Positions 32,501-46,610 of a stretch of DNA of 64,000 nucleotides are shown in pieces. Origin of the DNA: Oasisia sp. SBJ-2009 (taxonomy: Eukaryota; Annelida; Polychaeta; Sabellida; Siboglinidae); assembly GCA_964017155.1 (NCBI GenBank), contig OZ024856.1:14221227-14285226 (forward strand), written 5' to 3'. Every line of letters begins with the position of its first letter. Within the stretch, counting starts at the first letter, position 1. The notes under the pieces were generated by a model that was not told where the DNA came from, ran no database searches, and saw nothing but the letters and a program-made list of their open reading frames with translations. A program made the position numbers and the translations under genes.

Positions 32501-35500
32501 TACTGCAGCTGACGATGAATCAGATGAACGTCTGGAAAAGAGGAAAGCAAAGGTGAGTACTTATAGTTTATATTGCATTAGTTTGGTGTCTCATCATTAT
32601 CATGAAACAGAATGTTGGTGACTTTGTCTGTCCAGTACATCTGTCAGTTTGACGTGTCTGGCGAAAATGTCAATAATGCATTCTACAGATGTATTGCTTA
32701 AATATGCAGAAAAATTCTGTACAGTTTTATTGTTGTACCATATACATTGCCCCTAATCTTTCCAAGCTTCCAGGAAAGAAAGTAACAAAATGTTTTACTT
32801 GAATCTTTGCACTTTGAGAATAATCCCAGTGTTTATCGGTTTGTTTGTAGTTAAATGCTAAGACAGTGTAATAATATTAATTGATGGCTCAAATATAGAA
32901 ATAACAAGTTAAATTATCATGATATCATAGCAATCCTAGATAGTTAGTAGGTGTAGAAGATCGTGTTGTTGATCTTCAAACAAAATGTATTCATTGTGGA
33001 CATGAAACGTTACAGCAATCATTGTACATTGGTTATTGTTTCTGCCACCAGGCGGTCGTAGAGAACGAGTCGATGGTGGAGGACGTAATGGCTGACGCAG
33101 AGACTGAGGAGGCTCTGGCTGAGTTCGACTTCCTCGTATCTGAGAGTGGCGAGGGGGCCGGGGAGGCTCGTAGTCAGGGGGATGGCACAGAGTGGGGTAA
33201 GTGTGTGTGAGGGGGCCGGGGAGGCTCGTAGTCAGGGGGATGGCACAGAGTGGGGTAAGTGTGTGTGAGGGGGCCAGGGAGGCTCGTAGTCAGGGGGATG
33301 GCACAGAGTGGGGTAAGTGTGTGTGAGGGGGCCAGGGAGGCTCGTAGTCAGGGGGATGGCACAGAGTGGGGTAAGTGTGTGTGAGGGGGCCGGGGAGGCT
33401 CGTAGTCAGGGGGATGGCACAGAGAGGGGTAAGTGTGTGTGAGGGGGCCAGGGAGGCTCGTAGTCAGGGTGATGGCACAGAGTGGGGTAAGTGTGTGTGA
33501 GGGGGCCAGGGAGGCTCGTAGTCAGGGGGATGGCACAGAGTGGGGTAAGTGTGTGTGAGGGGGCCAGGGAGGCTCGTAGTCAGGGTGATGGCACAGAGTG
33601 GGGTAAGTGTGTGTGAGGGGGCCAGGGAGGCTCGTAGTCAGGGGGATGGCACAGAGAGGGGTAAGTGTGTGTGAGGGGGCCAGGGAGGCTCGTAGTCAGG
33701 GTGATGGCACAGAGTGGGGTAAGTGTGTGTGAGGGGGCCAGGGAGGCTCGTAGTCAGGGGGATGGCACAGAGTGGGGTAAGTGTGTGTGAGGGGGCCAGG
33801 GAGGCTCGTAGTCAGGGGGATGGCACAGAGTGGGGTAAGTGTGTGTGAGGGGTGAGGGAGGCTCGTAGTCAGGGGGATGGCACAGAGTGGGGTAAGTGTG
33901 TGTGAGGGGGCCAGGGAGGCTCGTAGTCAGGGGGATGGCACAGAGTGGGGTAAGTGTGTGTGACGGGGCCAGGGAGGCTCGTAGTCAGGGGGATGGCACA
34001 GAGTGGGGTAAGTGTGTGTGAGGGAGGCTCGTAGTCAGGGGGATGGCACAGAGTGGGGTAAGTGTGTGTGAGGGGGCCAGGGAGGCTCGTAGTTAGGGCG
34101 ATGGCACAGAGTGGGGTAAGTGTGAGGGGTGGAGGAGGTTCTTAGTCATGGCGATGGGGCAGTGCCAGCGTGCGACAAGATTGATTGTTATTCTAGAGCT
34201 GTTACAACATCTGGTACACGTATTTTGTGTATTTATTTTACAGAGTAAAAGAACCTCACAGGGTGGGGGCGTGGAAGATGGGGCATCATTATATGGATGT
34301 AAACATACAGCTTACATGGGTGAATGTGTGTGTTACAGAGAAGAAGGACCTCTCGGGAGGCGTCGAGGAATGGGGCGTGGACCAGCAACTCATCAGCAAG
34401 TTGAAGGAGCAGTACCAACGTGAGAGACAAATAGGCAAGAAGGGAATGCAAAGTATGCTGGCATTTCTCTTCTCCTTGTTCTCTGGCTTGTCTAGTGCCC
34501 TGTGTTGTGTCTGTCCACAGCCAGTGTCTCTCCCTTGTCACATGTTCCTAGACAGTTGTACACCCTGTCAGCTGTCAGCAACATGTGACATTCCACTATG
34601 CTGATGTCATCTAGGTCCCCATTTGTGTTGTGTTTGCTGGCCATACTCTTACGTTGGAGTGGTTACAATGGCACGGCCTGTCTTGTTAGACTTGACAGTT
34701 TTCAGTTACAGTTTTCTCTTCAGTTACAACTTTAGGTGACATTGCCTGCCTATTTAACTTGCACAATCGACAGAGCATAGTTCCAGTACCTCAGACTGTC
34801 GCAGCCCTCACCCTTAAGCTTTTATAGGTTGTATTTACTCTTGTGATTGCCATCCCACCTGCTTGCACCACTATCACACCACTATCACACCACCACTATC
34901 ATACATCTATCACACCACAATTAAACCATCACTATCACACCCAACACTTTCACACCAACGCTGGTTACATGTACACCAGTACTTTCACTCCAACACATTC
35001 ACACTTTCACACAAATAAACATTCAATACCATATATAACACAAAATAACACAAACACACCAACGCTACCACATCAGCACTTAACCACTGGTAATCACCGT
35101 CTAGTACAGATCGTATGTCACAGCCTGTGCTATAACTTATCTTGAAGGTTTGGCTACGTTTTCATGCAGCGTCCACGCTTCATGCAAACATTGTAGAACT
35201 GATTTCTGTGCATATACAGTATATGTGTATGTTTGTGTGTGTGGAGACACGTTACTCTGCTTATGCACACATTGGAAGAAGTATTGTTGCTTCCAGTGCT
35301 GCGGCCACAACCTATTGCATAGTGAACTAATACTGGAATGTTTCAGTGCAACTAGTTGATCTTCATTTTCTAATTTAAACATGAAACTTAAGTGACTGTT
35401 CAGCTGCAAAATGGCTTTGACTCTGATGTCAGACAAACATGAACACAGTTTTGTTGTATTAGATAAAGTGATGTGTGTGTGTGTGTGTGTGTGTATATAT

Positions 35501-46610: not shown

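Follow-up and report, generated by a model that had tools for sequence, protein, structure and literature searches.

How do the exon–intron boundaries of one conserved gene come to lie inside tandem arrays, and how does its message survive them? The question is raised by a striatin gene (STRN/STRN3 type) in a stretch of 64,000 nucleotides from the siboglinid annelid Oasisia sp. SBJ-2009 (GenBank assembly GCA_964017155.1, contig OZ024856.1, forward-strand positions 14,221,227 to 14,285,226), the whole of which is referred to below as the window. An earlier reading of the letters alone (the sequence-only reading) had placed four of the gene's 36 internal splice boundaries inside independent arrays with different units. 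Tandem Repeats Finder (TRF) and a 19-exon gene model agree with it: the exon 8 donor, the exon 11 acceptor, the exon 17 donor and the exon 19 acceptor each lie within a strong array of their own (Table 1). We consider it likely that these are minisatellites of the kind named mirages in amphioxus, grown by slippage and tolerated because the message is restored when splicing takes the copy next to the exon.

Boundary arrays in the striatin gene

All four arrays share a one-sided geometry, in which the exon holds less than one unit (46, 35, 12 and 7 nt, in gene order) and the remaining copies are intronic; none of the arrays reaches the far end of its intron. Across the four arrays the copies are spaced 32–69 bp apart. 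The array over the exon 8 donor repeats GGG/GTAAGT (the slash marks the junction) 17 times, at 33196...34115, and the array over the exon 11 acceptor comprises eight copies, seven carrying CAG/GTTCTCC at a spacing of 61–69 bp and the outermost carrying TAG/GTTCTCC. An AG/GT site is repeated in three of the four arrays, those at exons 11, 17 and 19.

The exons were located by tblastn, with a human striatin sequence as the query, and their edges were fixed by the GT-AG rule and the reading frame. The resulting model has 18 GT-AG introns and a frame of 790 residues with a single stop at its end; its translation is 58% identical to that human striatin over residues 36–790. The top BLASTP match, among the best 120 of 3818 matches, is P0001, a protein from Ridgeia piscesae, at 87% over 91% of the query. 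In an alignment of six striatin sequences that includes the window's own (alignment A1), P0001 and the window striatin are 99% identical at aligned positions. By sequence comparison, the gene is a striatin orthologue, and its frame is open and collinear with the striatins of other animals when the exon-proximal splice copies are used. P0001 is a public gene model of 635 residues, itself a prediction, which starts after exon 1. Besides exon 1 it lacks exon 13 and portions of exons 11, 16 and 17, all of them intact in the window. It also reads ALDW where the window reads ALGLGD, which suggests a one-base difference at that point.

Table 1. Striatin gene of the window, its exons at array-bearing or duplicated boundaries, and the associated repeats
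Feature	Position in the window	Strand	Remarks
Striatin (STRN/STRN3-type) gene	11390..46610	+	Start to stop codon, 19 coding exons (tblastn, GT-AG and frame model)
Exon 8	33052..33196	+	Final 46 nt form copy 1 of the 58-bp array
58-bp array over exon 8 donor (33196/33197)	33151..34124	+	TRF: 16.9 copies, 95% matches
Decayed duplicate of exon 9 acceptor with the start of the exon	34191..34284	+	Matches 34289-34376
Exon 9	34339..34452	+	Gene model
GT-rich array	35738..35826	+	TRF periods 6 to 26; ends 3 bp before exon 10 acceptor (35829/35830)
~62-bp array over exon 11 acceptor (36919/36920)	36443..36954	+	TRF: period 65 bp, 8.1 copies, 91% matches
Exon 11	36920..37050	+	First 35 nt within the array
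Exon 17	44687..44794	+	Final 12 nt within the 34-bp array
34-bp array over exon 17 donor (44794/44795)	44783..44971	+	TRF: 5.6 copies, 89% matches; six CAG/GT
18-bp array	45403..45441	+	2.2 copies; ends 4 bp before exon 18 acceptor (45445/45446)
38-bp array over exon 19 acceptor (46440/46441)	46257..46447	+	TRF: 5.0 copies, 80% matches; five CAG/GTCAYGA
Exon 19 and stop codon	46441..46610	+	First 7 nt within the array

To the four arrays a self-similarity scan adds one further case. All 36 boundaries were compared with the 400 bp on each side, and z scores were derived from 60 dinucleotide shuffles each. The scan recovered the four arrays (z 22–33) and the repeat before exon 10 (z 10.7), together with a decayed duplicate of the exon 9 acceptor (~94 bp, z 6.3), which is not listed by TRF and carries an acceptor-like site before 34244; it constitutes a fifth duplicated boundary. 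As a control, 700 intronic positions were drawn at random; z 5 is reached at 116 of them, of which 105 lie in listed arrays or within 50 bp of them; outside the arrays 11 of 528 positions do so, and five of these 11 fall in the exon 9 duplicate itself.

Three further candidates were rejected. The exon 5 donor (z 11.3) is followed by a 175-bp duplication that starts 5–24 bp past the boundary and does not span it, and at the exon 13 donor (z 5.0) identity is low and no donor is conserved. Over the exon 17 acceptor TRF lists a weak row of a 21-bp unit (2.2 copies, 44647–44692, score 50); this boundary is not counted as duplicated, since an independent self-similarity test gave it a score of 16, within the background.

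Repeats also occur close to boundaries in this gene. The exon 10 acceptor abuts a GT-rich array, as the sequence-only reading had said, and over 35738–35829 this repeat stands in place of the expected pyrimidine tract; in CFTR, exon inclusion is influenced by TG repeats that precede an acceptor. Just past the exon 5 donor, 29635–30126 comprises two 175-bp tandem copies (89% matches, TRF); within it 30035–30126 is also highly self-similar and may be a further decayed copy of the unit. Intron 16 contains a 2.9-kb array (41723–44594) of about 130 copies of the 22-bp unit TAGAAGGCCTCCAAGTTGCATC (79% matches, TRF), which ends about 90 bp before exon 17. Elsewhere in the window, two of the six open frames examined match Pfam RVT_1, at 5110–5736 (E 4.2e-13) and 52052–53896 (E 1.2e-35); these reverse-transcriptase fragments probably derive from non-LTR (long terminal repeat) elements.

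Coding effects of the other copies

At each of the four arrays, use of the exon-proximal copy preserves the reading frame and gives a complete predicted protein. Splicing at the other copies was evaluated for 31 sites, with a premature stop in 28 cases, a frameshift in one and a preserved frame in two. Each of the 16 other donors of exon 8 leads to a stop after residue 329, and each of the five at exon 17 to a stop after residues 717–722. At exon 11, five of the six other CAG acceptors, which were the ones tested, give a stop after residues 425–483. Among the four other acceptors of exon 19, early stops follow from copies 1 and 3, and copy 4 shifts the frame and runs past the normal end, with no stop in the rest of the model. 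Use of the decayed exon 9 acceptor would end the protein after residue 326. One explanation offered by the sequence-only reading, that arrays are kept only where one copy of the site stays usable, is the one that fits these effects best.

Two other interpretations of the arrays were discarded. The extra copies do not form a coding repeat, since most of them contain in-frame stops, and the creation of introns by AGGT duplication was rejected because each array has one intron end only.

The copies also differ in the residues that they would encode. G314, invariant in all six sequences of A1, is kept in three of the 17 exon 8 copies, the exon copy included; most intronic copies have drifted at this position, which is constrained in the exon. 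Within the coding part of the exon 11 array (36920–36954), the window reads RGSASLVG and Ridgeia P0001 reads RGSVSLVG. Several intronic copies of this array carry GTGTCG, which would encode valine; the difference could stem from turnover of the array that extended into the coding copy, or from a simple C-to-T substitution.

Chance, bias and tolerance

We hypothesize that the mirage-type arrays began when a short tandem duplication took in a splice boundary by chance. The founder duplication may have arisen by slippage between short direct repeats, and growth into the intron would have followed by replication slippage or unequal exchange. The hexamer GAGGGG is common to the exon edge and the intron edge of the 58-bp array, the footprint expected of such slippage. 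Such a duplication would be nearly harmless because the exon and its own splice site stay intact at the outer edge, provided that the spliceosome picks the copy touching the exon and thus the shortest exon, the other copies being intronic decoys. Exon definition, which favours the shortest exon, would account for that choice. G exceeds C on the coding strand in three arrays (GC skew 0.62, 0.44 and 0.32), which may have aided their expansion; the array at exon 19 expanded with a skew of 0.01.

Several results weigh against this account. Splice sites were scored with a weight matrix made from the gene's other sites, and many decoys match the score of the real site, so that site strength does not explain the choice of copy: all 17 exon 8 donors score 6.7, five of the six exon 17 donors score 9.2, the exon 19 acceptors score 15.4 at the real site and 11.9–16.4 at the others, and the decayed exon 9 acceptor outscores the real one (8.0 vs 6.8). 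At exon 11 the real acceptor scores 6.3 and the others 1.3–6.8, with two decoys at only 1.3, and the nearest upstream acceptor (36851) equals the real one. That acceptor also keeps the frame, adding 23 residues for a protein of 813, as does copy 2 at exon 19, which adds 38 residues for a protein of 828. The absence of extra residues from P0001 at the four array boundaries in A1, which would favour splicing at the exon-proximal copies, comes from a predicted gene model in which other parts of the gene are missing. Finally, the number of boundaries hit exceeds what placement of founder units would give. The permutation set comprised the 23 arrays of period at least 10 in the gene, of which five straddle a boundary, one of them the weak exon 17 acceptor row, retained here as part of the full list. 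Placing founder units at random gave 0.67 expected straddling arrays, and none of 5000 trials reached five. With the swallowing of exons forbidden, the observed 5 of 23 compares with 0.70 expected (P 0.00015), and for introns 2–18 alone 5 of 16 compares with 1.27 (P 0.004). Some bias in birth or retention may therefore be needed.

Other nulls give other answers. When whole arrays are placed at random, 2.73 are expected to straddle a boundary (P 0.106; circular shift P 0.14), and for arrays with at least three copies and score 100 the same test gives four of five against 1.64 expected (P 0.027; circular 0.046). A self-similarity score of at least 24 is reached by seven of the 36 boundaries, compared with 21% of 1500 random intronic positions, 16% of the 1357 outside the 22-bp array and 31% of the 572 that lie outside it in introns 2–18; for a score of at least 40 the figures are four of 36 and 14.5% of the 1500. 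Founders look enriched at boundaries and coverage does not, and the verdict depends on the null. The assertion of the sequence-only reading that straddling should be rare by chance accordingly holds under founder-unit nulls only; the excess is weak or absent for whole arrays (P 0.11 for the full set) and for self-similarity coverage. All of these P values are too small because they concern one gene, picked post hoc for its unusual look.

Plain chance with no bias in birth, acting on a repeat-rich gene with many exons, is an unlikely explanation in itself, although it overlaps the favoured one and the odds given to the two are not exclusive. It agrees with the whole-array and circular-shift results for the full set, with boundary segments that are no more self-similar than intronic ones, and with the post hoc choice of the gene. 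The whole-array null, however, lets arrays swallow exons, which none of the 23 real arrays does; the founder-unit expectation drops to 0.2–1.3, depending on the array set and the introns; the stricter array set departs from chance even in the whole-array test; and the decayed exon 9 duplicate is an extra case. Another rival is duplication aimed at splice boundaries, with R-loops, G-quadruplexes or paused polymerase at exon ends causing breaks whose repair duplicates sequence locally, a mechanism that we regard as improbable here. The founder-unit nulls are exceeded, donors and acceptors are both affected, the skew of three arrays and a G4Hunter-type score of 1.23 for the 58-bp array would be favourable for R-loops or quadruplexes, and the different internal divergence of the arrays (95, 91, 89 and 80% matches) suggests separate events over time. 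Set against this are the near-zero skew of the exon 19 array, the coverage of boundaries, which is no higher than that of random intronic positions, the whole-array P of about 0.1 for the full set, and the dependence of the argument on a single gene reported for its striking look. Targeting of junctions by break and repair is a conjecture; a founder-unit excess seen throughout the genome would indicate a mutational process tied to exon ends.

Retention of the arrays by selection for regulated or variable splicing, with rows of near-equal sites generating isoforms, seems very unlikely. In its favour, the exon 11 site at 36851 scores as high as the real one, its in-frame insert of 23 residues falls in a stretch that is variable among striatins, and copy 2 of exon 19 provides the other in-frame product. 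Premature stops at all 16 exon 8 and all five exon 17 alternatives count against it, the insert of 38 residues at exon 19 is predicted to land within the C-terminal WD40 region, and no insert appears in the P0001 model. An assembly artefact, with copies misplaced or inflated, is the least credible reading, although long arrays are often mis-sized in assemblies: the exon 8 copies before 33891 and 34057 carry private variants, with spacings of 57 and 50 instead of 58, the exon 19 array is just 80% matched, the four units are unrelated, and the exons around the arrays make up an intact gene. Tolerated mirage-type minisatellites remain our preferred explanation. As a long shot, vestimentiferan genomes might undergo junction-biased duplication, in which DNA at exon ends, G-rich and R-loop-prone in several cases, is copied in tandem again and again, and carry arrays of near-equal splice sites at many genes, a minority of them used (for example, the 23 additional residues at exon 11); this, if true, would keep supplying new splice-site variants outside the cephalochordates.

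Relation to known boundary repeats

No boundary-spanning repeats of annelids were found in the open-access literature by a search only partly aimed at annelids. The accessible part of an earthworm metallothionein paper describes minisatellites inside intron 1 and does not mention boundaries (PMC12783039); likewise, a C. elegans intronic minisatellite is linked to alternative splicing, with repeated junctions unmentioned in the accessible text (PMC4039745), and the available sections of the Ridgeia genome paper name TRF as a method without mention of boundary arrays (PMC9921365).

In humans, internal tandem repeats at boundaries have been associated, according to the available portion of the source, with 27 intron modifications in segmentally duplicated genes (PMC2812944). 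These minisatellites occupy a similar site and can create alternative introns; as far as that portion goes, they concern recent primate paralogues with transcript evidence, whereas striatin is a conserved gene whose predicted protein is unchanged by its arrays. Dual-specific AGGT splice sites within tandem repeats are described for UBC and VCX3A, together with intron gain by tandem genomic duplication; in the accessible text on these systems, the intron sits within the block of repeats, and its length comes to a whole number of units (PMC10809524, PMC3443670). The striatin arrays at exons 11, 17 and 19 share the AG/GT site with them but hold one intron end each. Units that carry a boundary donor are also known from the 31-bp variable number tandem repeat (VNTR) of human CBS and the 37-bp VNTR in intron 7 of the factor VII gene, which are single cases in vertebrate genes.

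The closest parallel is found in amphioxus. Tandem repeats spanning the boundaries of Adh were named mirages and have been proposed to be linked to the gain of introns; according to the accessible parts of the two papers, mirages also occur in the globins BflGb6 and BflGb9, in PGBD5 and in troponin C, with units of 10–72 bp in Adh3, 150–160 bp in the globins, and 60 and 108 bp in PGBD5, and the authors report or suggest that splicing is undisturbed (PMC3087553, PMC3902484). As far as those parts describe them, the amphioxus repeats resemble the striatin arrays in that the unit spans the exon–intron boundary, donors and acceptors are both involved, and AG/GT is repeated; the striatin spacing of 32–69 bp, and of about 94 bp at exon 9, lies within the reported range from Adh3 to the globins. 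The striatin arrays are therefore not a new class, repeats of this kind having already been named in amphioxus (PMC3087553).

The striatin gene offers a natural test of how a spliceosome selects one of as many as 17 equal donors, and of the ways in which tandem repeats could feed intron or isoform gain. The repeat itself is of a known kind, and its dense occurrence in one annelid gene sets it apart: unlike the amphioxus cases, four strong arrays and one decayed duplicate are found together in an annelid host, so that mirage-type repeats occur far from amphioxus, at no fewer than five duplicated boundaries, apparently of different ages, of a single conserved gene.
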